From: Vulcanimicrobium alpinum
GTDB taxonomy: Bacteria; Vulcanimicrobiota; Vulcanimicrobiia; Vulcanimicrobiales; Vulcanimicrobiaceae
Direction of reading: 5' to 3'
Assembly: GCF_027923555.1 (NCBI RefSeq)
Contig: NZ_AP025523.1
Span: 1,116,001-1,180,000 of the forward strand
DNA: 64,000 nt
Shown: positions 1,034 to 40,009 of the stretch, piece by piece
Position numbering within the stretch: the first letter of the stretch is position 1
How the letters are laid out: every line of letters starts with the position of its first letter
Notes under the pieces: model-generated
Seen by the model: the letters and a program-made list of their open reading frames with translations, nothing else
What the model was told of the DNA's origin: nothing
Database searches by the model: none
Position numbers and translations under genes: made by a program

Positions 1034-1344
1034 CAGTCGAGCCGCTCCACGAAGACGTGGATCGTCCCGCCGCAGGTGAGCCCCACGGAGATCGCCTCTT
1101 CATCGCTGATCCCGTAGGTCACCAGGCGCGGCCGCCCGGTCGCGATCGCGTCCTGCGCCTCCTCGTACACGGCCGATTCGACGCAGCCGCCGCTCACCGA
1201 GCCCGCGACGTCGCCGCGTTCGTTCACGGCGAGCGCGGCGCCGGGATCGCGCGGCGCCGACTGTTCGACGCCGACGACGGTCGCGACGGCGACCCGCTGT
1301 CCTTCGCTGCGCCAGCGATCGATCGTGTCCACAATGTCGATCAT
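1030..1344 (-). CDS. XdhC/CoxI N-terminal domain protein
   Basis: A 104-residue protein containing only the N-terminal XdhC_CoxI domain. The key family motifs are visible: ATVVGVEQSAPRDPGAALAV near the start, GSVSGGCVE around residue 48-56 and LTCGGTIHVFVE close to the end; the Cys in SGGCVE and the CGG are the conserved features. Family members sulfurate or deliver molybdenum cofactor to hydroxylases such as CO or xanthine dehydrogenase. The gene lies between coxE and the longer XdhC gene and overlaps both by four bases, so the two XdhC halves are co-translated. The ATG (1342-1344) is set by the ATGA overlap with the coxE stop. Confidence 0.85.
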   Translation of the reverse strand: MIDIVDTIDRWRSEGQRVAVATVVGVEQSAPRDPGAALAVNERGDVAGSVSGGCVESAVYEEAQDAIATGRPRLVTYGISDEEAISVGLTCGGTIHVFVERLDW

Positions 1345-2486
1345 GCCGAAAGTCCTTCGATCGCGTCCGCGACCGCATCGAGTGTGCGCAAGTTATGACC
1401 GGAGACGAACGCGTCGAGATGCGGGAGCGCCGCCGCCATCCCGCGCGCGAGCGGCTCGTACGCCGGATGGCGTTTGTGCGGGTTCACCCACACGATCCGC
1501 CGCGTCAGACGGCGCAGGCGGCGCATCTCGGTTTCAAGCCGTTCGGGATCGTCGCGTTCCCACCCGTCGGAGAGGATGACGACCGTCCCGCCGCGCGCCG
1601 CGCCGCGTTGCGCGTAGCGCTGGTTGAACGCGTGCAGCGCTGCGCCGATGCGCGTTCCGCCGCCGTAGTCGCGCACCGTCGCGCCGATCGCCGCCATGAG
1701 CCGGTCGTCCGAGGCGCGCCGCAGGAGCGGCGTGAGATCGGTCAGCTGCGTCGCGAATGCGAACGCCCGAACCCGCGGGCGCGCTTGAGCGGTGACGCGC
1801 GCGTAGTGCAGCAGCGCGCGGGCGAACGGTCCCATCGATCCGGAGACGTCCAGCAGAAAGACCAGCGGACGCACCGTCGTGCGGCGCGCTGTCGCACGGC
1901 GGCGGATCAGTTCGCCGGCGGTGCGCGACGCGCCGCGCAGCGTGCCGCGGAAGTCGAACCGGTCGCCGTGCGGGTGCCGGCGGCGCCGGCGTGAGGCGCG
2001 CCGCTCCGACGCGATCCGCACCCGCCGCATCAGCCGGAGCATCGCCGCGCGCTCGGCATCGTCGAGTTCGTCGAACGGCCGCTCCGAAAGCTCCTCGTCG
2101 CGCGCGGCGAGGATCCATTGGATCGGCGCGCGCTCGGCCTCGCGCTCGCGGGCCTGCTCGCTCGACGGCGGCGGCGGGAGCGACTCGCGCTGCGGGCGGT
2201 CGCGGCGTTCGCGCGGCGGCGCATTGACGGCGCGCACCAGCCGGTGCAGCGCGTCGGCGTCGTCGATTGCGCCGAAGAACTCGACGAACGCCGCATCGAA
2301 TGCGTCCGCGTCGTCGACCGCCGGCAGCATCGCTGCGCGCGCGCGATGGTAGAGCGCGCGCATCGACGACGGGGGCATCAAGTGCAGGACCTCGGCGAAC
2401 GTCTGCGCGCGGCGCGTCCCGGCTGCGACGCCGCGGGCGCGCAGCGCCGCGTCGAAACGGGCGGCGACGGCCGCGATCTCGCTCAC
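1341..2486 (-). CDS. coxE: CoxE-like von Willebrand factor A domain protein
   Basis: A 381-residue VWA protein of the CoxE type. The C-terminal half carries the MIDAS metal site DVSGSM at about 213-218, followed by [20 protein letters not shown] and [14 protein letters not shown], and later [12 protein letters not shown]. The N-terminal half is a helical region with an Arg/Pro-rich, low-complexity linker at 90-175. CoxE works with the MoxR ATPase CoxD in maturing the CuMo or Mo active site of CO dehydrogenase-like enzymes. The GTG start at 2486 overlaps the coxD stop by four bases. The open frame extends upstream to 3167 but that part runs antisense-frame through coxD, so the GTG is the sensible start. 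Confidence 0.87.
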
Positions 2487-3370
2487 GCGACCCCGTCGGC
2501 GCGCACGGCCGCGACGATCGCTTCGGCCGCCGCCCGCGCCGTTTCGATATCTTCGGGATACTTCAGCACGGCGCCGAGCGAGCGCTGGAACGAGGCGTGA
2601 TCGAGGCGGTCGGCGCCGAGCAACTGCAGGGTCTGCGTCCAGTCGAGCGATTCCGCGATCCCGGGCGGCTTGCGCAGATCGCGCTCGCGCAGCGCCGCCG
2701 CGGCGCGCGCGACGTCGGCGGCGAGCGCCGGGGGAGCCTCCGGGACGCGCATCCGCAGGATCGCGATCTCGCGGGAGATCGTCGGGTGCGCGATCCAGTG
2801 GTAAAAACAGCGCCGCTTGAGCGCGTCGTGCAGGTCGCGGGTACGGTTCGACGTCAGCACCACGATCGGCCGGTGGCGCGCGGCGATCGTCCCGCGCTCG
2901 GGGATCGAGATCGCGAAATCGGAGAGAAACTCGAGCAGAAAGGCTTCGAATTCGTCGTCGGCGCGGTCGATCTCGTCGATCAGCAGCACGATCCCGCGCT
3001 CCCGGGGCGCACCGAGCGCGGCGAGCAGCGGCCGGCGGATGAGAAAGTCGTCGGCGTACAGGTCGGGGGTCCGCTCGTGCGCGGCCTCGGCGGCGCGGAT
3101 CGCCAGCAGCTGCTTCCCGTAATTCCAGTCGTAGGCGGCGGACGCCAAATCGAGACCTTCGTAGCATTGCAATCGCAGCAGTTGCGCGTCATGCACCGCC
3201 GCCAGCGCGCGCGCCGCATCGGTTTTACCGACGCCGGCGTCGCCCTCGAGCAGCACGGCGCGTTCCAGGCTGACGGCGCAGGCCAGCGCGGTGGCGAGGC
3301 CGTCATCGGCGACGTAGCCGGCGTCCAGCAAGCGCTCGCGGAGATCGTCGACGTCGACGGGCTGCGGCAT
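2483..3370 (-). CDS. coxD: CoxD-like MoxR family AAA+ ATPase
   Basis: A 295-residue MoxR-type AAA+ ATPase. The Walker A GDAGVGKT is at 43-50, Walker B LLIDEID at 129-135 and the sensor-1 region [10 protein letters not shown] at 171-180, followed by the arginine-rich [11 protein letters not shown] typical of this family. CoxD family proteins partially unfold or remodel the apo-hydroxylase so that the active-site metal cluster can be completed, acting with the VWA partner CoxE encoded next. This is the first gene of the minus-strand operon and lies back-to-back with coxS across a 132-base gap that must hold both promoters. The ATG start at 3370 gives a standard family length. Confidence 0.88.
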
Positions 3371-3461
3371 GGCATTCGGCGATTCGCAGGAGAGCGCGCA
3401 GACCCTGGACCGGCTTTCCTACTTTCCGGTCAGAAATCGGCAAGGAGATTCGTCTCGTCCA

Positions 3462-3476
3462 CCGGTAGCGTACCGG
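3462..3476. promoter_or_regulatory. palindrome in the coxD/coxS divergent promoter gap
   Basis: The perfect inverted repeat CCGGTA-GCG-TACCGG lies 27 bases before the coxS start, in the 132-base gap between divergent coxD and coxS. A looser pair, ACCGG at 3409-3413 and CCGGT at 3426-3430, uses the same half-site. This is a plausible operator for a regulator controlling both arms; no regulator gene is adjacent. The coxS ribosome-binding site GGAGAGG is at 3491-3497. Confidence 0.4.
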
Positions 3477-3502
3477 CCCGCGTACTCAACGGAGAGGGTT
3501 GC

Positions 3503-4078
3503 ATGCAGATCGATCTCACCGTCAACGGGAAGCGCACGTCGCTTGATGCCGAGCCGCGGCTGCTGCTCGTGCACGCGTTGCGCGACCGCCTCGGACTGAC
3601 GGGAACCCATGTCGGTTGCGATACTTCGAGCTGCGGCGCGTGCACCGTGCTGCTCGACGGCGTTTCGGTGAAGAGCTGCACGATGTTCGCCGTTCAGGCG
3701 AGCGGACACGACGTCACGACGATCGAGGGGATCGGCGACGCCGACGAACTCCATCCGATGCAGGAAGCGTTCTGGACGGCGCACGGCCTGCAGTGCGGGT
3801 ACTGCACCACCGGAATGATCGTGAGCGCCGTCGACCTGCTGCAGCGCAATCCCGATCCGAGCGACGACGAGATTCGCGCCGGGCTCGAAGGGAATCTCTG
3901 CCGCTGCACCGGCTACGAGAACATCGTCAAAGCCGTGCGCGCCGCCGGAAAAGCGATGCGCGAGAACGCGCCGCGCTCGAGCGTCCGCGACCTGATGTCG
4001 ATCCACCCGCCCGCAGAGGAACCGCCGCCCTCGGGTGAAGTGATCATTCCGCCGCAACTGCAGGGAGCGAGCACCTAA
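3503..4078 (+). CDS. coxS: CoxS-type [2Fe-2S] subunit of a molybdenum hydroxylase
   Basis: The iron-sulfur small subunit, 191 residues. The plant-type [2Fe-2S] site uses Cys39, Cys44, Cys47 and Cys59 ([16 protein letters not shown]); the second, helical-domain cluster uses Cys98, Cys101, Cys133 and Cys135 ([10 protein letters not shown] and [16 protein letters not shown]). Both are complete. It passes electrons from the Mo site in CoxL to the FAD of CoxM. The ATG at 3503 has GGAGAGG seven bases upstream and gives the normal N-terminus [12 protein letters not shown]-terminal tail of about 30 residues beyond the usual end is Pro/Glu-rich. The stop overlaps the coxL ATG by one base (TAATG). The gene order S-L-M differs from the M-S-L order of form I operons. 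Confidence 0.92.
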
Positions 4079-6450
4079 TGGCGTTCACCACGATGGTCGG
4101 CGCGCGCATCCGCCGCCGCGAAGACCCCCGGCTGATCACCGGCCGCGCCACTTACGTCGACGACGTGAAGCAAGTCGGCACCGTGTACGCGGCGTTCGTG
4201 CGCAGCCCGTACGGTCACGCGAAGATCCGTGCGATCGATCTCGCACCGGCGCTCGCGCACCCCGACGTACTCGCGGCATACACCGGTGAGGACCTGCACC
4301 ACGCGCACGGCCTCAAGTCGTCGCTCCCGGTCGCGCACAAAATGGCGGATCTGAAGACGCCGCCGCACTACATCCTCGCCGTCGACGAAGTGCGCATGGT
4401 CGGCGAAGCGGTCGCCGTCGTCGTTGCGAACACCGCCTATGCGGCGCGCGACGCCGCCGAACTCGTCGCCGTCGACTATGACGAACTGCCGGCGGTGGTC
4501 GATCCGCTCAAAGCCCTCGAGGGCGCGCCGTACGTCCACGAATCGCTTGGCACCAACGTCGCGTTCCGGATGCCGTTCAGCGCCGGCGATCCCGACAAGG
4601 CGTTCGCCGAGGCTGATCAAATCGTCAAGCAGCGCATCGTCAATCAGCGCGTCGCGCCCGTGCCGATCGAGCCGCGATCGATGGTCGCGAACTGGGACGA
4701 AGGGCGCCAGCAGTTGACGCTGCACTCCTCGACGCAGATCCCGCATCTGCTGCGCACCCAGCTCTCGGTCGTGCTCGGGATCTCCGAGAATCACGTGCGC
4801 ACGATCGCACCCGACGTCGGCGGCGGCTTCGGCGCGAAGCTCAACGTGTACGCGGAAGAAGCCGTGGTGAGCTGGGTTGCGATGCAGCTCGAACGTCCGG
4901 TGAAGTACGTCGAGACCCGCTCCGAGAGCTTCCAGGCGATGATCCACGGACGCGATCAGGTCGACGATCTCGAGATCGCGTGCACCAAGGACGGGACGAT
5001 CACCGGCCTGCGGCTGCGGATCGTCGGCAACCTCGGCGCCTACCATCAGCTCCTCACGCCCGTCGTCCCGACGCTGACCCTGCTGATGGCGCCCGGCTGC
5101 TACCGCATCGAAAACATCAGCGCCGAAGTGATCGGCGTCTTCACCAACACGATGTCGACCGACGCCTACCGCGGCGCCGGCCGGCCCGAAGCGACGTTTT
5201 TCATCGAACGCGCGGTCGATCTCGTGGCGCAGCGGCTCGGCCTCGATCCGGCCGAGGTGCGGCGGAAGAACTTCATCGCGAACACCGCGTTCCCGCACAC
5301 GACGTCGACCGGACTCACTTACGATTCCGGCGATTACGAGACGACGATGGACAAGGCGCTGGCGATCGTCGACTACGCCGGCTTGCGCGCGCAGCAGGCG
5401 GAACTCCGCAAGCAGGGACGGCTGATGGGGATCGGGCTCTCGACGTACGTCGAGGTGTGCGGGATGGGGCCGTCGGCGGCGATGCCCGCGGCCGGCTGGG
5501 ATTCCGCGACGATCCGCGTCGAGCCGACCGGGAGCATCACCGTGCTCACCGGCGTCTCGCCACACGGCCAAGGGCAAGAGACGACGTTCGCGCAGATCGT
5601 CGCCGACGAACTCGGCGTTCCGATCGACACGATCAACGTGATCCACGGCGACACCGACAAGGTGCAGTACGGCGTGGGGACGTTCGGATCGCGCGGCACG
5701 GCCGTCGGCGGTGCCGCGCTCAAGCTCGCGATCGAGACGATCCAGGCGAAGGCGGTGAAGATCGCCGCGCACCAGTGGGAAGCGAACCCCGACGACGTCG
5801 AGTATCGCGACGGGAAGATCCAGGTGAAGGGCGACCCGTCGAAGTCGATGTCGACCGCAGAAGCGGGGTTCCTCGCGTTCATGGGCGACAAGCTCCCGCC
5901 CGGTCTCGAACCGGGACTCGATGCGACGCGCCGGTTCGAACCGCCCAATTTCGTCTTTCCGTTCGGGACGCACGTCTGCGTCGTCGAGGTCGATGCGAAG
6001 TCCGGCGAGGTGAAGGTCGTGAAATACCTCGCGGTCGACGACTGCGGACGTCTGCTCAATCCGATGATCGTCGAAGGGCAGGTCCACGGCGGGATCGCGC
6101 AAGGACTCTCGCAGGCGCTCTTCGAGGAAGTCATCTACGACGAGGGCGGGCAGCTGCTCACCGGCACGTTGATGGACTATGCGATCCCGCATGCCGAACA
6201 GGTGCCGCACTACGATCTCGACCACACCGTCACCGGGACGACCGTGAACCCGCTCGGGATCAAGGGCGTCGGCGAAGCCGGGACGATCGGCTCGACGCCG
6301 GCCGTCGTCAACGCGGTGATCGACGCGCTCGCGCCGTACGGTGTCGTGCACATCGACATGCCGCTGCGGCCGGAGAAGATCTGGACCGCGATCCACGCCG
6401 CGAAAACGAACGGGGCGGCCAACGGCGCCGCGAACGGAGCAGCGCGATGA
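4078..6450 (+). CDS. coxL: CoxL-like molybdenum hydroxylase large subunit (form II type)
   Basis: The catalytic large subunit, 790 residues, of the xanthine oxidase/aerobic CO dehydrogenase family. The active-site loop reads AYRGAGR at 363-369. That is the form II signature; form I enzymes, the biochemically proven CO dehydrogenases, have AYxCSFR with the copper-binding Cys, which is absent here. Other family features are DVGGGFGAK near 245, GQGQETTFAQIVADELG near 500 and the catalytic Glu733 in GVGEAGTIG. The physiological substrate of form II enzymes is uncertain: some oxidise CO slowly, while others act on purines, aldehydes or heterocycles. The C-terminus ends in a short Ala/Asn/Gly repeat (NGAANGAANGAAR). 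It overlaps coxM by four bases. Confidence 0.9.
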   Translation: MAFTTMVGARIRRREDPRLITGRATYVDDVKQVGTVYAAFVRSPYGHAKIRAIDLAPALAHPDVLAAYTGEDLHHAHGLKSSLPVAHKMADLKTPPHYILAVDEVRMVGEAVAVVVANTAYAARDAAELVAVDYDELPAVVDPLKALEGAPYVHESLGTNVAFRMPFSAGDPDKAFAEADQIVKQRIVNQRVAPVPIEPRSMVANWDEGRQQLTLHSSTQIPHLLRTQLSVVLGISENHVRTIAPDVGGGFGAKLNVYAEEAVVSWVAMQLERPVKYVETRSESFQAMIHGRDQVDDLEIACTKDGTITGLRLRIVGNLGAYHQLLTPVVPTLTLLMAPGCYRIENISAEVIGVFTNTMSTDAYRGAGRPEATFFIERAVDLVAQRLGLDPAEVRRKNFIANTAFPHTTSTGLTYDSGDYETTMDKALAIVDYAGLRAQQAELRKQGRLMGIGLSTYVEVCGMGPSAAMPAAGWDSATIRVEPTGSITVLTGVSPHGQGQETTFAQIVADELGVPIDTINVIHGDTDKVQYGVGTFGSRGTAVGGAALKLAIETIQAKAVKIAAHQWEANPDDVEYRDGKIQVKGDPSKSMSTAEAGFLAFMGDKLPPGLEPGLDATRRFEPPNFVFPFGTHVCVVEVDAKSGEVKVVKYLAVDDCGRLLNPMIVEGQVHGGIAQGLSQALFEEVIYDEGGQLLTGTLMDYAIPHAEQVPHYDLDHTVTGTTVNPLGIKGVGEAGTIGSTPAVVNAVIDALAPYGVVHIDMPLRPEKIWTAIHAAKTNGAANGAANGAAR

Positions 6451-7298
6451 TCCCTGCAACCTTCGACTACCTGCGCGCGTCGTCGGTCGCCGACGCGATC
6501 CGGCTCCTGGGGGAACACGGCGACGACGCCAAACTGCTCGCCGGCGGCCACAGCCTCATCCCGATGATGAAGCTGCGTTTGGCAACGCCCGCGACGCTGA
6601 TCGACATCACCGGGATCGGTGGGCTCGACGGGATCGCTGCCGACGGCGGCACGATCGCGATCGGCGCGCTGACGAAACATGCTGCGCTCGCATCGAGCAG
6701 CATGCTCCGGGCGCAGGCGCCGGTGCTCTGGGACGCCGCCAACGATCTCGGCGATCCGCAGGTGCGCAACCGCGGCACGATCGGCGGCGCATCGGCGCAC
6801 GGCGATCCGTCGGCGGACTATCCGGCGGTCCTCCTCGCGCTCGACGCGACGTTAACGCTCGCCGACGCCAAGGGCGAACGCACGTTGCGCGCGCGCGAGT
6901 TCTTCCGCGGGATGTTCGACACGGCGCTCGACCCGCGCGAACTGCTCACGAAGATCGCGTTTGCCGCGGCGCCGAAGTCGGCATACGTGAAGTTCCACCA
7001 CCCGGCGTCGCATTACGCGGTCGTCGGAGCCGCCGTCGCGCTGACAATGAACGGCGGGCGGATCGGCTCGGCGCGCGTCGCGATCACCGGGATCGGCGAC
7101 GCCGCGTTCCGCGCCGAGGGCGTCGAACGCGCGCTCGCCGGCGTCGATCCCGGGGATGCGGCCGCAATCGAGGCCGCGTGCGCGAACGCCGCGCAGGGCG
7201 TCGAGGCGCGCTCCGATACGTTCGCGTCAGCGCACTACCGCAGCGCGATGGCCGACGTCTTCACCGCCCGCGCCGTCGCCAAAGCCGCCGCGAGGTAG
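6447..7298 (+). CDS. coxM: CoxM-type FAD-binding subunit
   Basis: The medium flavoprotein subunit, 283 residues. FAD-binding motifs are AGGHS at 32-36 and TIGG at 111-114 followed by ASAHGDPSADYP, both diagnostic for the CO dehydrogenase/xanthine dehydrogenase FAD domain. The C-terminal CO_deh_flav_C domain follows from about residue 175. It accepts electrons from the CoxS clusters and hands them to the respiratory chain. The ATG overlaps the coxL stop (ATGA). It closes the S-L-M operon; about 25 bases after the stop comes a long inverted repeat that may end transcription. Confidence 0.92.
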   Translation: MIPATFDYLRASSVADAIRLLGEHGDDAKLLAGGHSLIPMMKLRLATPATLIDITGIGGLDGIAADGGTIAIGALTKHAALASSSMLRAQAPVLWDAANDLGDPQVRNRGTIGGASAHGDPSADYPAVLLALDATLTLADAKGERTLRAREFFRGMFDTALDPRELLTKIAFAAAPKSAYVKFHHPASHYAVVGAAVALTMNGGRIGSARVAITGIGDAAFRAEGVERALAGVDPGDAAAIEAACANAAQGVEARSDTFASAHYRSAMADVFTARAVAKAAAR

Positions 7299-7323: not shown

Positions 7324-7420
7324 GTCACGCTGAGCTTGTCGAAGCGCGGCCCCGATCGGGCACGAAGGCGAAGACCTGCGTGCGTGAATTGCGGCGGCGC
7401 TTCGACAAGCTCAGCGTGAC
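7324..7420. repeat. 24-bp perfect inverted repeat (dispersed repeat family)
   Basis: Arms at 7324-7347 and 7397-7420 are exact reverse complements (core CTTCGACAAGCTCAGCGTGA) separated by 49 bases. The element sits between the convergent ends of coxM and the dctP gene. Single or degenerate copies of the same sequence occur at 18502-18523, 19448-19470, 36591-36614 and 39987-40009. There is no T-run, so any terminator role would be Rho-type or structural. Confidence 0.85.
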
Positions 7421-7426
7421 ATGGAC

Positions 7427-8441
7427 TCAGCCGAGTTTGCCGCTGTATTTTTCCAGCAGGGTCCAGGCGCTCGGGCCGAATTCTTCCTTCCAGCGGCTGT
7501 AGAACGGTCCGAGTTTCGCGCGGAACGACGACGGGTCGACCTTGTTGATCGTCAGCACCTCTTTCGCGAGCTTCTGCGCGAGGGAGTCGTTCATCGCTTC
7601 GACGTCGGCACGCTGCTGCTGCACGTATTTCTTGAAGCCCGCGAGCGCGATCTTCTGCAAGTCGGGCGGGATCTTGTTCCAGGAATCGGGGTTGCCGATC
7701 ATCCAGAAGCCCGACCACATGTGATTCGTGAGGCTGAGGTATTTCTGCACTTCGAAGAGCCGTGACGTCTCGATCACCGTCAGAGGATTTTCCTGACCGT
7801 CGACGATCTTCGTCTGCAGGGAGGTGTAGACTTCGTTGAAGTTCATCGGCGTCGGCGCCGCGCCGAGCGACTTGAACAGGTCGGTCGGCAGCTTCGCCGC
7901 CGGAGTGCGGATCTTGAATCCGTCGAGATCGGCGACCGTCTGGATCGGCTTCGAACTCGACGTGACCTCGCGCATCCCGTTGAGGAACACGTGGTCGTAC
8001 ACAGAAGCCCTTTGCGGTGAGCTCTTTGCGCGCGTGCGCGCCGAGTTCGCCGTCGAAGGCCGCGAACGCGTCTTGTGAATCCTTGAACGCGAACCCGACG
8101 CCGAAGATCGCCGCCAATGGCACGACGTTGCCGAGCACGCCGCCGTCGGCCATCATGAAGTCGAGCGCGCCGGAGCGGATTTGGGCAAGCATCTGCGACG
8201 CGCCGCCGAGCTGGTTGTTGGGAAAGTCGCGGATCTCGAGCTTTCCGCCGCTGTCTTTGAGGATCTCGGCGAAGATCTGGTTCGCGCGCACGTTGGTCGG
8301 GTTGAGCGCCGCGTTGTCGGTGCCCATCTTGAGCGAGAACTGCGGCGCGGCGGACGCGCGGCGCGGGACGATCGCGATCGACGCGAAACCCGCCGCTGCG
8401 GTTGCGACGAAACGCCGTCGCGACACTCCGGATGCGGTCAT
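7427..8441 (-). pseudogene. TRAP transporter solute-binding protein (DctP family), frameshifted
   Basis: Two adjacent frames together make a normal DctP protein of about 337 residues. The first runs from ATG 8441 (preceded by AGGAGGG) with a twin-arginine signal SRRRFVATAAAGFASIAIV and then FSLKMGTDNAALNPTNVRANQIFAEILK. The second begins with VYDHVFLNGMREVTSS near 8002 and ends at 7427 with WTLLEKYSGKLG. The break is at about 7999-8004 and needs removal of one base or addition of two. DctP proteins bind small organic acids or sugars in the periplasm. No DctQ or DctM membrane subunits are in the window, so it is an orphan here. It is the last gene of the GntR-transketolase-SDR operon. The break may be a sequencing error; the rest looks well conserved. 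Confidence 0.8.
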
Positions 8442-8474
8442 GTGGGATGCCCTCCTTTCGATCCGTGGATCGAG

Positions 8475-9209
8475 TCAGTCGATGTGGGACCCGCCGTTGA
8501 TGTCGAGGACCTCGCCGGTGATGTAACCGGCCCGCTCCGCGCACAGAAACGCGATTGCGAACGCGACGTCGTCGGCGGTGCCGAGACGGCCGATCGGGAT
8601 CTCGGCGCGAAGCGTTGCGCGCTTCTCGTCGTCGAGCAGACCGCCGGTGATGTCGGTGTCGATGAGACGCGGCGTTACCGCGTTGCAGGTGATGGTGTGC
8701 GGCGCCATCTCACGCGCCGTCGCTTTGGTGAAGCCGAGGATCGCCGCTTTGGCGGCGGAGTAATGCGAACCGCCGAAAAGTCCCGCCGCCGCGCAACGCG
8801 CTCACCGACGAGAGGTTCACGATCCGGCCGTAGCGCGCGGGGATCATCGCGCGCAGCGCCGTCTGCGTCGCGATGAACGTGCCGTCGACGTGCACCGCGA
8901 ACATCGCGCGCCATTCGGCGTCGCCGATCTCCATGAGCCGCGTCGGCTTCGAGTAACCGGCGTTGTTGACCAGCACGTCGACGCGCCCGAAGCGGGCGAG
9001 CACCGCGTCGAACGCGCGCTCGACCGCGGCGCGGTCGGTGACGTCGCAGGTCTGCGCGAACGCGCCGATCGCCCCCGCGCGCGCCCGCACCCCTGCCTCG
9101 TCGCGATCGAGCAGCGCAACCTCGAAACCGTCGGCTTTGAGCGTGCGTGCCGTTGCGGCGCCGATCCGCGCTCCGACCCGGCGCCGGTGATGACCGCGAC
9201 GCGGCTCAC
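8475..9209 (-). pseudogene. short-chain dehydrogenase/reductase, two frameshifts
   Basis: Read across three frames this is a normal SDR of about 245 residues. It starts at GTG 9209 (GTGA overlap with the transketolase C-subunit stop) with VSRVAVITGAGS, the NAD(P)-binding loop, then shifts frame at about 9168-9178 (one base missing) into RIGAATARTLKADGFEVALLDRD. It continues to VLVNNAG (the NNAG motif) and NLSSVSAL, and shifts again at about 8782-8794 (one base too many) to GGSHYSAAKAAILGFTKA, which holds the catalytic Tyr-x-x-x-Lys. The end is GEVLDINGGSHID. All catalytic motifs survive and the two shifts cancel, which suggests sequence error more than decay. It is probably a polyol or sugar-acid dehydrogenase of the transketolase operon; the substrate is unknown. 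Confidence 0.82.
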
Positions 9210-10222
9210 GCGAGCGCGGTCCGAATCGTCTTGGCGATCCCCTCGCCGTCGAGCCCGTAGTTCTTGTAGAGATGCGTCGGCGGGCCGAGGATCGAGAACG
9301 CGTCCTGCATCCCGATCCGCGTCAGCCGCGTCGCCGTGCCGACTTCGGCCATTACCTCGGCGACGGCGCTCCCGAGACCGCCGATCACGTTGTGCTCCTC
9401 TGCCGTGAAGACGTGCCGCGTCTCGAGACACGCGCCGCGCACGGCGTCGGCATCGAGCGGCTTGAGCGAGTACGCGTCGACGACGCGCAGCGCAATCCCC
9501 TCGGCTTCGAGCAGCCTTGCCGCCTGGAGTGCGAAGTCAACGCAGATCCCGGTCGCGAACACCGTCGCGTCGGTGCCGTCGCGCAGGCGGTGGGAGCCGC
9601 CGATGCGGTACTCCGGGATCGGCGCGTCGTATACCGGCGTCTCGCGGCCGCGCCCGAGCCGGAAGTAGATCGGGCCCGGATGATCGACGGTCGCGACGAG
9701 CGCCTGGCGCAACGCCACCGCGTCGATCGGCGCGAGGATCGTGAGGTTGGCGAACGAGCGGATCGCGCCGATGTCTTCGGTCGCGTGATGCGAGCTGCCG
9801 TAGAATCCCATTGTGAGCCCCGAGTGCGTGCTCAGAAAACGCACCGGCAGCTTCGTGTAGCAGACGTCGAGCCGGATCTGATCGGCGGCGAGCAGCGCGA
9901 GAAAGCAGGCGTAGCCCGAGACGTACGGGAGCATCCCGGCGGACGCCATCCCGGCCGCCGCGCCGACCATGTTCCGTTCGGAGATTCCGAAGTTGTAGTA
10001 GCGCTCGGGGAACGCGCGGCCGAAATCGATCACGCGCGTCGGACGGCCGAGATCGGCCGTGAGCACGACGATGTCGTCGCGCCGGCGCGCGAGCTCGATC
10101 AGCACCTCGCCGGAGACGAGCTGTTTGGAGAGCGCGAGGCTCCCGACCATGTCCCACGAGCGCTCGTCGAACTCGGCGGTGACGGTCGACTCGAGCAGCG
10201 GACGCGTGTCGGCAGTCGTCAT
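9206..10222 (-). CDS. transketolase, C-terminal subunit (pyrimidine and C domains)
   Basis: A 338-residue protein with the pyrimidine-binding and C-terminal domains of transketolase, the second half of a two-subunit enzyme. The catalytic glutamate that activates thiamine diphosphate is Glu82 in YYNFGISERNMVGAAAGMA. Further family features are SGYACFLALLAADQIR and HSGLTMGFYGSSHHATEDIG. The ATG at 10222 overlaps the N-subunit stop by four bases and skips a weaker in-frame extension to 10288. Split transketolases are often part of specialised catabolic operons, for instance for sulfosugars or branched-chain pentoses, instead of the central pentose phosphate pathway. The GntR, SDR and TRAP genes around it agree with such a role, but the substrate cannot be read from the sequence. 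Confidence 0.9.
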   Translation of the reverse strand: MTTADTRPLLESTVTAEFDERSWDMVGSLALSKQLVSGEVLIELARRRDDIVVLTADLGRPTRVIDFGRAFPERYYNFGISERNMVGAAAGMASAGMLPYVSGYACFLALLAADQIRLDVCYTKLPVRFLSTHSGLTMGFYGSSHHATEDIGAIRSFANLTILAPIDAVALRQALVATVDHPGPIYFRLGRGRETPVYDAPIPEYRIGGSHRLRDGTDATVFATGICVDFALQAARLLEAEGIALRVVDAYSLKPLDADAVRGACLETRHVFTAEEHNVIGGLGSAVAEVMAEVGTATRLTRIGMQDAFSILGPPTHLYKNYGLDGEGIAKTIRTALA

Positions 10223-11067
10223 GCTTCCAGCTCCTTCATCGCGCGTTCGTAGTCGCGCGGCCCGAGGTATCCGAGATGCCATTGCCACGCGTGCTCCATG
10301 AAGGAGACGCCCTTGCCCGCGATCGTGTCGGCGAGCACGACGACCGGCTTGTCGTGCCAGCCGTTCAGCGCGTCGTCGAGCGCCGCGGTGACCGCCTGAA
10401 GATCGTGACCGTCGCGCAGGTGAACGACGTCCCAGCCGAACGCGCGGTATTTCGCGTCGAGCGGTTCCATGTCGAGGATCGCATCGCAGCGATCGTCCGA
10501 CTCGACCTCATTGCGGTCGACGATCGCGACAAGGTTCGACAGTTTGCGATAGCCGGCCGAGGCGGCGGCCTCCCAGATCTGTCCTTCGCCCTGCTCGCCG
10601 TCGCCCAGCATGCAGACGACGCGCGCCGGCGACTTGCGCAGGCGCAGCGCCAGCGCCATCCCCACCGAGACCGAAAGATTGTGTCCGATCGAGCCCGATG
10701 AGAAATCCGCGCCCTTCACTTTGCGCATGTCGGGATGGTCGCCGAGGGGACTTCCGAGCCGCGTGTACGTGTCGAGATCGGACGCCGGAAAAAATCCGAG
10801 GTCCGCAAGGATCGGATACACCGCGATCGCTGCGTGGCCTTTGCCCATCGTGAACCGGTCGCGATCCGCCCACTGCGGCGCGTTCGGCCGCACGCGCAGC
10901 AGCTTGTAATAGAGCGCGACCAGGAGTTCCGCGATCGAAAACGCCGACCCGTAGTGACCGCTCCCCGCGATCTCCGTGAGCCGGACGACTTCCGTGCGGA
11001 CCATGCGCGCTTTCTCGGCGAGCGTCGCGCGCTCGTCCGTCGAGAGCGATAATGTCGTCGTCGTCAT
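10219..11067 (-). CDS. transketolase, N-terminal subunit (thiamine diphosphate domain)
   Basis: A 282-residue protein carrying the pyrophosphate-binding domain of thiamine diphosphate. The metal/ThDP motif runs from GDGEQGEGQIWEAA (GDG at 155-157) to the Asn in IVDRNEVESDD near 186-192. GSGHYGSAFSIAELLVALYY at about 35-54 and GSIGHNLSVSVGMA near 125 are typical transketolase N-half motifs. It pairs with the next gene to form a heterotetrameric transketolase. The ATG at 11067 overlaps the GntR stop by four bases (ATGA), so regulator and enzyme are translationally coupled. Confidence 0.9.
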   Translation of the reverse strand: MTTTTLSLSTDERATLAEKARMVRTEVVRLTEIAGSGHYGSAFSIAELLVALYYKLLRVRPNAPQWADRDRFTMGKGHAAIAVYPILADLGFFPASDLDTYTRLGSPLGDHPDMRKVKGADFSSGSIGHNLSVSVGMALALRLRKSPARVVCMLGDGEQGEGQIWEAAASAGYRKLSNLVAIVDRNEVESDDRCDAILDMEPLDAKYRAFGWDVVHLRDGHDLQAVTAALDDALNGWHDKPVVVLADTIAGKGVSFMEHAWQWHLGYLGPRDYERAMKELEA

Positions 11068-11816
11068 GAGTTCCTCGTCTCGTGTTCGGCGTGGATGCTG
11101 GGAGCCGCGGACCAATAGGTCTTCTCGAACCAGCGCAGGTGGCGCAGCATGAGCTGCTCGGCTTCGTGGGGATCGGAACGCCGGATCGCGTCGGCGATCG
11201 CGCGATGGTCCTCGGCGTTGCGGGCCCGCGGCTCCGGCGCGACGACCGTGCGATCGCGGATGAGCCCCCACAGCGGCTGCCGCATCGCGGCGTGGACGTC
11301 TTCGAGCGTCCGAGCCGCGATCGCGTTGTGCGACGCGCGCGCGATCCCGGTGTGAAACCGCTCGTCGGCGTGCGGCGAGTAGGCGTCGCGCGCCGCGTCG
11401 GCGATCAGCGCGTCGGCGGCGGAGACGATCGCGTCGATCTCCGGCTTCGCGGCGCGCTTCGCGGCCAGGCCGGCCGCGAGCGGCTCCAGCGCGATGCGGA
11501 CCTCGATGATCTCCTCGGGGCTGACCGCGGAGAAGACGGGCGCGACCTTCGGCGAGGTGAACGTGACGAAGACGCCGCCCCCGCGGCGGGCTTCGACGAC
11601 GCCCATCAGCTCGAGCGCGGAGAGCGCCTCGCGCACGGGTGCCCGACTGACCCCGAATCGCTCGATGAGCACCCGCTCCGGCGGGAGGCGCTCGCCGATC
11701 CGGCACCGGCCCTCCTCGATGAGCCGGACGATCTCGCGGGCGATCAGGACGTAGAGCTTCTCCGAGCGGATCGCCCCGATCCCGGAGTGCTTGTCTACTT
11801 GTGGTACTTGTGACAC
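11064..11816 (-). CDS. GntR family transcriptional regulator, FadR (FCD) subfamily
   Basis: A 250-residue regulator with an N-terminal winged helix-turn-helix (about 20-88: YVLIAREIVRLIEEGRCRIGERLPPERVLIERFGVSRAPVREALSALELMGVVEARRGGG is the classic GntR pattern, here split by position) and a C-terminal all-helical FCD ligand domain (about 100-230, with a metal-binding HTGIARASHN and H-R-A-I-A-D region). The GTG start at 11816 lies inside a cluster of short direct repeats that may be its own operator. It leads the operon with the split transketolase, SDR and dctP and most likely represses it until a sugar-acid or similar catabolite binds. Confidence 0.88.
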   Translation of the reverse strand: MSQVPQVDKHSGIGAIRSEKLYVLIAREIVRLIEEGRCRIGERLPPERVLIERFGVSRAPVREALSALELMGVVEARRGGGVFVTFTSPKVAPVFSAVSPEEIIEVRIALEPLAAGLAAKRAAKPEIDAIVSAADALIADAARDAYSPHADERFHTGIARASHNAIAARTLEDVHAAMRQPLWGLIRDRTVVAPEPRARNAEDHRAIADAIRRSDPHEAEQLMLRHLRWFEKTYWSAAPSIHAEHETRNS

Positions 11817-11860: not shown

Positions 11861-12210
11861 TCAGCGCCGTTGATCCGGGATCGCTTCCGACTCCGGGCCG
11901 TCGAGCGGCAGCACGAGCGAGACCGCTTTGCCGGGATTCTTCTCGAGGGTCACCTTGCTCCGGTGCTCACCGGCTCGCTTTGCGAACGCGCCGGCGATCG
12001 GCGTCGCCGCTGCGTCGTAGACGTTGAGCGGGTCGAGTCCGAACAGCACTTCGACCGTGCGCAGGATCGACGTTTGGCTGTAGTGCGTTTGGTCGACGAA
12101 GCCGCGCCGGATGTGCGGTCCGATCGCGAGCGCGGGCTTGCGATGCGAGTCTACGTGGTCGCCGGTCCCTTGCGCGTCGTCGCAGGTGACCTCATCGTTC
12201 GCCAGCGTAG
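11861..12210 (-). pseudogene. C-terminal remnant of a phosphoesterase/phospholipase C-type enzyme
   Basis: The minus strand encodes an uninterrupted stretch of about 115 residues that matches the C-terminal part of the phosphoesterase family (PF04185-like). It contains DDAQGTGDHVDSHRKPALAIG, with the metal-site DDxQxxxDHVDxHR pattern, then GPHIRRGFVDQTHYSQTSIL and VLFGLDPLNVYDAAATPIAGAF. The frame is closed by a TAA just upstream (about 12217), and the large N-terminal part of the enzyme (several hundred residues) is missing; the ABC-F leader follows directly. There is no convincing start codon at the truncation. It is therefore a gene fragment, left by a deletion or rearrangement at about 12210. 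Confidence 0.72.
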
Positions 12211-36590: not shown

Positions 36591-36614
36591 GGGCTTCGAC
36601 GAGCTCAGCGCGAC
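36591..36614. repeat. copy of the dispersed intergenic repeat
   Basis: GGGCTTCGACGAGCTCAGCGCGAC lies between trmFO and hslV in the 70-base gap. It matches the 7397-7420 arm except at three positions. Confidence 0.7.
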
Positions 36615-39986: not shown

Positions 39987-40009
39987 GTCACCCTGAGCTT
40001 GTCGAAGGG
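39987..40009. repeat. copy of the dispersed intergenic repeat
   Basis: GTCACCCTGAGCTTGTCGAAGGG, in the orientation of the 7324-7347 arm, lies between the HiPIP terminator and the def promoter. Confidence 0.75.

Follow-up and report, generated by a model that had tools for sequence, protein, structure and literature searches.

What does a two-subunit transketolase do in an operon that also encodes a short-chain dehydrogenase/reductase (SDR) and the solute-binding protein of a tripartite ATP-independent periplasmic (TRAP) transporter? The question is raised by a minus-strand, five-gene operon (GntR/FCD regulator, TktA, TktB, SDR, and DctP; Table 1) in a 64,000-nucleotide stretch of the Vulcanimicrobium alpinum genome, hereafter the window (contig NZ_AP025523.1, here C1, positions 1116001-1180000); the genome is a single contig of 3,508,363 bases that is 99.65% complete. 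The genes, their order, their strand, and the overlaps that join the first four were confirmed as described in an earlier interpretation made from the DNA letters (the sequence-only reading): an ATGA is common to GntR and TktA and again to TktA and TktB, a GTGA is common to TktB and SDR, and 33 bases separate SDR from DctP. Split transketolases are easily misannotated as enzymes of the pentose phosphate pathway; we propose, with moderate confidence, that this operon was acquired horizontally as a module for the catabolism of a hydroxy-carboxylate and that it is now partly decayed.

The sequence-only reading had placed the pair in a dedicated pathway and not in the core pentose phosphate pathway, unless it should prove to be the only transketolase of the genome. 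A genome search with the Transketolase_N profile recovered two full-length transketolases (467 and 457 bits) and a second split enzyme (C1:2391273; 177 bits, compared with 145 for the window pair). Three further matches were weaker, at 36, 22, and 19 bits, and one of them is an E1 of the 2-oxo-acid dehydrogenase type. The assignment to a dedicated pathway is upheld by these three other transketolases, by three altered substrate-range sites, and by the position of the pair in a specialized clade. When the window pair was aligned with Escherichia coli TktA, residues H26, H66, H100, D155, N185, H261, E411, F437, and H473, which serve thiamine diphosphate (ThDP) binding or catalysis, were all identical. 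The substrate-range sites include R358, S385, H461, and R520, which we take to bind the substrate phosphate in the E. coli enzyme; in the window pair H461 and R520 are kept, position 385 is P, position 469 is Y, and no R stands at aligned position 358 (E. coli numbering), this last being the least certain change, since a K lies one place before aligned position 358 in the window TktB. The letter aligned at 358 is S or Q, not R, depending on the alignment. The three other transketolases of the genome, two full length and one split, retain R358, S385, H461, D469, and R520.

In 97 other pairs, the second split pair of this genome included, position 469 is D in 62, Y in 30, T in two, F in two, and G in one; R stands at aligned position 358 in none of the 30 Y469 rows and in 60 of the 62 D469 rows, the remaining two having K. 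P385 and Y469 occur together, with no R at aligned position 358, in all six of the TktBs from the window and from loci L116, L119, L120, L141, and L142 (L141 and L142 have R one place before), a comparison for which L116, L141, and L142, absent from the residue table and the tree, were aligned separately, with the region of E. coli R358 gapped, and read by eye. The clade naturally carries substitutions at residues that engineers alter to broaden substrate range: mutations at R358, S385, D469, and R520 of E. coli transketolase are reported to raise activity on aromatic aldehydes (PMC7661550), and D469T and S385Y variants have been described (PMC10787763). Two Actinomycetota pairs within the specialized clade (L042 and L043) have F469, L461, and E520, another type of pocket. 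If the pair were simply an additional transketolase for the pentose phosphate pathway or Calvin cycle, this would account for the intact ThDP and catalytic residues and for the retention of H461 and R520; such a role is very improbable given the three canonical transketolases already in the genome, the altered substrate-range sites, the SDR and transporter partners, and the phylogenetic distribution of the pair.

In a tree of 101 rows, built by a quick method with support from the Shimodaira-Hasegawa-like approximate likelihood ratio test (SH-aLRT) only and with the three marker positions excluded, the window pair groups with L119 and L120 (SH-aLRT 100) inside a clade of 33 rows (SH-aLRT 99), of which 31 have Y469 and two have F469; the split transketolases of its own phylum (L003 and L009 to L012) fall outside this clade. 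The closest pairs, with TktBs 60-65% identical to that of the window, come from five genomes assigned by inference to Pseudomonadota, two of them to Alphaproteobacteria. At an E value of 1e-60 or less, TktB was matched in none of 10 congeners, in none of 26 other family members, and in three of 23 remaining relatives (37-39% identity). Of the 149 phylum genomes searched at an E value of 1e-80 or less, the window genome alone matched, through its own pair, and the other 148 gave no match. Large searches around the relatives, where scoring was limited to five first-look candidates or fewer per genome so that misses are possible, gave matches at 1e-95 in three of 399 genomes of the family of a Rubrivivax genome (G060), that genome included; matches at 1e-105 in two of 385 genomes of the class of G063; and, for relative G265, one match among 369 genomes of its class at 1e-100 and one among 399 of its order at 1e-105, both being G265 itself. 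The simplest reading is that the pair was probably transferred between phyla, from Pseudomonadota or from a common donor.

The partners of the pair were conserved in its closest relatives, whose small common set is an SDR and a transporter. An SDR adjoins TktA-TktB in all five (L116/L041, from a Rubrivivax metagenome-assembled genome, and L119, L120, L141, and L142); aligned over 243 positions, these SDRs show 46.9-49.4% identity to that of the window, with which they have in common the stretch around the YxxxK motif. L141 and L142 (TktA 71-74% and TktB 63-65% identical to the window proteins) have the complete arrangement, LysR // SDR-TktA-TktB-DctP-DctQ-DctM, with no kinase or aldolase between the module genes, DctQ and SDR of L142 being identified by BLAST only. 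In L119, GntR and a D-erythronate dehydrogenase (351 bits; NCBIfam cutoff, 325) face an ABC transporter, and the cluster continues with an L-threonate-dehydrogenase-like gene (309 bits; cutoff, 350), TktA, TktB, SDR, a TAXI TRAP receptor, and a fused TRAP permease. In L041, the genes before TktA are those of the ABC transporter, one resembling L-threonate dehydrogenase (331 bits; cutoff, 350), a weakly GarR-like gene (162 bits; cutoff, 397), and a PhyH gene; L120 carries homologues of the two dehydrogenases together with TktA, TktB, and SDR, so that L-threonate-dehydrogenase-like genes lie near the pairs of three relatives. The more distant Y469 pairs occur in varied clusters annotated with succinate-semialdehyde, shikimate, glycerol, and idonate dehydrogenases, enolase-superfamily proteins, and aminotransferases; in one of them (L027) an annotated D-erythronate dehydrogenase lies about 9 kb away.

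An SDR was found within 5 kb at 18 of 26 Y469 loci versus three of 27 others (44 of 97 excluded for short flanks), and within 1.5 kb at nine of 30 versus three of 42 (25 excluded), in counts made with six SDR queries, of which Y469 loci supplied five, and with related rows, so that p-values from these counts are not independent tests. A Paenibacillus locus (L107; GntR-MFS-TktA-TktB-SDR) was considered as the closest layout and rejected: R358, S385, and D469 are all retained in its pair, which the tree places outside the Y469 clade. A peroxidase-domain gene, catalase-peroxidase-like by size, and a PhyH gene lie near one complete module (L141, 12941-16117). No published description of a module of SDR, split transketolase, and TRAP transporter was found in the titles and abstract beginnings of the open-licence literature. 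The sequence-only reading had offered sulfosugar or apiose pathways as examples; this is unsupported, as none of the operon genes suggests either pathway and the pairs of close relatives are accompanied by genes resembling dehydrogenases of sugar acids or hydroxy acids, together with TRAP or ABC transporters.

Transketolases cleave HOCH2-CO-CH(OH)-R and move the two-carbon ketol. We infer the substrate class, the acceptor, and the order of reactions, the observations being gene set, synteny, pocket residues, phylogeny, and frame breaks. In the complete form represented by the two alphaproteobacterial genomes, an acid would be imported by the TRAP transporter; the SDR would oxidize a hydroxyl group of the imported acid, yielding an alpha-hydroxy ketone; and the transketolase, ThDP-dependent and made of two subunits, would break the carbon-carbon bond next to the new ketone. 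The acceptor of the two-carbon ketol would be an aldose phosphate drawn from the pentose phosphate or Calvin pool, and the remainder would be released as an aldehyde acid. For a C4 acid, 3-oxotetronate and glyceraldehyde 3-phosphate would give xylulose 5-phosphate and glyoxylate. Phosphate would be gained through the phosphorylated acceptor, and a kinase and an aldolase would therefore be unnecessary in the cluster. Tetronate-like acids are our guess at the substrate, prompted by the erythronate and threonate dehydrogenase-like genes of some relatives. The specific short route, in which a polyhydroxy acid is taken up, oxidized to a 3-oxo (ketol) acid, and split by an altered-pocket transketolase that transfers the ketol directly to a sugar phosphate, with release of glyoxylate or a different aldehyde acid, all without a sugar kinase in the cluster, is advanced tentatively, as one possibility that may well prove wrong. 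If true, it could explain other "transketolase" pairs of the clade on plasmids and chromosomes, provide a kinase-free entry into central metabolism, and offer ready-made biocatalysts.

Several observations weigh against this proposal. With H461 and R520 kept, and with R (L141 and L142) or K (window) just before aligned position 358, the pair may still be able to bind phosphate. None of the scored L-threonate-dehydrogenase-like genes reaches its NCBIfam cutoff, and no threonate-type gene was labeled near the two alphaproteobacterial modules, around which 20 and 18 kb were covered. A DUF1537 domain was present in all four genomes searched, the copy of the window genome being at C1:1552964, and relative G265 has an LtnD-like gene, a DUF1537 kinase, and, as judged by eye, an aldolase-like gene about 38 kb away; the domains and this cluster indicate that kinase routes exist there too, and kinase-free tetronate degradation was set aside as a firm claim on these grounds. 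Finally, the pieces of the window DctP are 39-49% identical to two other DctPs of its own genome (L121 and L130), and for the C-terminal piece the identity to the DctPs of the complete modules is 32-33%; since the window DctP is closer to the former, the transporter may have been swapped, and the window receptor may be a local replacement, possibly for another substrate.

The transketolase might alternatively use a 2-oxo acid, the SDR converting an imported 2-hydroxy acid into a hydroxypyruvate-like 2-oxo acid that TktAB would decarboxylate, passing the ketol on. With a C4 2-oxo acid, three carbons would have to be transferred, which is atypical of transketolases. This route draws support from the split Carboxydothermus transketolase, which among solved structures is closest to both subunits and is reported to have been assayed with hydroxypyruvate as the donor (PMC7661550), and from L-threonate dehydrogenase, relatives of which lie near three of the pairs and which is reported to yield a 2-oxo acid (PMC12540250); on balance, we regard it as unlikely, though worth keeping in view. 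The relatives with L-threonate-dehydrogenase-like genes (L041, L119, and L120, with the D-erythronate dehydrogenase of L119) also recall the tetronate pathway LtnD-OtnI-OtnK-OtnC, which differs in that a kinase and a decarboxylase are described as leading to dihydroxyacetone phosphate (PMC12540250), whereas the window cluster contains a transketolase and lacks a kinase; the cluster of dehydrogenase, DUF1537 kinase, and OtnC that marks the OtnK tetronate pathway is not in the window operon.

TRAP and MalK-type ABC systems usually serve small hydrophilic solutes. Since these are the transporters of the closest relatives, they argue against a further alternative, a desmolase-like cleavage of the side chain of a bulky ketol (steroid, terpenoid, or aromatic) as proposed for DesAB, and no steroid or terpenoid gene is present among the five operon genes. 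The changes at S385, D469, and aligned position 358 do resemble those of variants engineered for bulky aldehydes, and one Y469 cluster (L031) adjoins a P450 gene. The likeness to DesAB, from the steroid-17,20-desmolase operon (desEAB or desABCD), is one of layout: desEAB comprises an SDR and a two-subunit transketolase in the same transcript, with a LysR regulator in the operon figure and, in Clostridium scindens, a putative transporter, desD (PMC5408610), whereas the window operon has a GntR regulator and a TRAP receptor in place of LysR and a "melibiose transporter"-type protein. The known substrate of DesAB is cortisol, a nonsugar ketol is thought to be cut, and the known DesA proteins are described as 75-82% identical among themselves (PMC5408610). 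Taken together, these points make a desmolase-like role improbable for the window pair. In Sphingopyxis granuli (L031, 4721-10450; Y469), a P450 gene, an SDR-like gene, TktA, TktB, SDR, and an SMP-30-like gene stand in a row, making this locus a candidate for a nonsugar substrate.

SqwGH, which we take to be a split transketolase as well, offers another parallel. It works in a dedicated catabolic pathway, sulfoglycolysis (PMC11659671); the difference is that no sulfosugar gene occurs among the five window operon genes, the rest of the genome not having been searched for one. Rif15a/Rif15b of rifamycin synthesis, compared by description only, is likewise a two-subunit transketolase from overlapping genes that acts on a nonsugar acceptor (PMC6002545), and the window pair could on this model be a biosynthetic tailoring enzyme. 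Rif15 differs in belonging to a biosynthetic cluster with a P450 partner; the adjoining solute-binding protein and FCD-type regulator of the window fit uptake and catabolism, no biosynthetic gene is found among its five operon genes, and a tailoring role appears the most improbable of all. By description, and without sequence comparison, the window operon may work like DesAB, Rif15, and SqwGH. The closest solved structures for both subunits are those of the Carboxydothermus hydrogenoformans split transketolase (6yaj and 6yak), which differs in having none of the substrate-range substitutions and in being reported as the sole transketolase of its genome (PMC7661550).

Whether the proposed hydroxy-carboxylate module still operates in V. 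alpinum is another matter. The reading frame of the SDR is broken at about 9165-9170 and 8776-8785 and that of DctP at about 8003, as judged by the agreement of three-frame translation, Pfam searches on the pieces, and a coding-frame scan; the sequence-only reading spoke of a repaired DctP and was silent on the two breaks in SDR. No frame breaks were found by the scan in TktA, TktB, or GntR. Only the regulator and TktAB are intact among the operon genes in this genome, and the window copy is probably nonfunctional as a pathway. The breaks could instead be sequencing errors in a fully working operon, as the intact SDRs of five relatives would allow; three breaks within about 1.2 kb, with none in the adjoining TktA, TktB, and GntR, count against this. 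Vulcanimicrobium alpinus WC8-2 (Eremiobacterota; 3.50 Mbp, gap-free) is described as a hybrid assembly of NovaSeq and PacBio data (PMC9758169), and if the window genome is that of WC8-2, three errors in so short a stretch would be unlikely, though possible. We therefore judge an error-based explanation unlikely. The window copy would, on our preferred reading, record both a transfer between phyla and the decay that came after it.

No DctQ, DctM, kinase, or aldolase was detected within the window operon by gene calls and Pfam, as the sequence-only reading had noted; the complete DctPQM set is reduced to a lone, broken DctP, and elsewhere the genome has one DctM match (C1:848660, fused to DctQ and beside another DctP) and one DUF1537-type kinase domain. 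The related suggestion that the route is incomplete or uses genes elsewhere was borne out insofar as the clusters of two relatives contain the full TRAP transporter and neither a kinase nor an aldolase, and fell short in that the SDR and DctP of the window are also broken. The one DctQM of the genome might have served the window DctP. Among PDB entries the C-terminal piece of DctP best matched 4oan (186 bits; next, 113), which we take to be from Rhodopseudomonas palustris and to have, probably, 2-acetolactate as its ligand. The R in KIRTP of the window DctP aligns with an R in 4oan and is a candidate for the carboxylate-binding arginine (Arg-147 in SiaP). Carboxylates, bound through a conserved arginine, are described as the predominant ligands of TRAP DctP proteins (PMC4646407), and reported TRAP ligands include 2-acetolactate and pantoate/erythronate (PMC5812351). 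The N terminus of the window DctP is signal-like by eye. Elsewhere in the genome, another DctP (L121, 5263-10149; C1:1757262-1762148) lies beside an E1 and E2 resembling those of 2-oxo-acid or acetoin dehydrogenases and a BKACE gene, again such a receptor next to a ThDP enzyme, and a third (L130, 5987-10952; C1:846986-851951) accompanies the only DctM match and two dehydrogenase genes.

Table 1. Features of the operon and its downstream border (window coordinates)
Feature	Position	Strand	Remarks
GntR-family regulator with FCD domain	11064..11816	-	Intact reading frame; Pfam GntR 66.5 bits, FCD 88.2 bits
TktA, transketolase ThDP-binding subunit	10219..11067	-	Intact; Pfam Transketolase_N 147 bits
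TktB, transketolase pyrimidine and C-terminal domains	9206..10222	-	Intact; Pfam Transket_pyr 120 bits, Transketolase_C 95 bits
SDR oxidoreductase	8475..9209	-	Two frame shifts; YxxxK motif retained in last piece
DctP-type TRAP solute-binding protein	7427..8441	-	One frame shift; Pfam DctP on both pieces
Inverted repeat	7324..7420	.	Between operon and convergent flavoprotein gene; exact 21-mer copies 7324-7344 (-) and 7400-7420 (+)

No promoter or terminator pattern above chance was found at the operon, a GntR target site not having been searched for. The inverted repeat downstream of DctP is a possible bidirectional terminator or dispersed repeat; its 21-base unit has four matches in the window at two or fewer mismatches, compared with none in 100 shuffles, and further copies lie at 36594-36614 and 39987-40007. 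Just upstream of the operon on the minus strand, positions 11861-12210 are coding-like, with a 62-amino-acid open reading frame only and no Pfam match, and are possibly a gene remnant. Within positions 1341-7298, the plus strand carries CO dehydrogenase/xanthine dehydrogenase-type genes (molybdopterin and FAD subunits) and the minus strand CoxE-like and AAA genes; a further frame change flagged by the coding-frame scan at 1341-3370 corresponds to the latter two neighboring genes.

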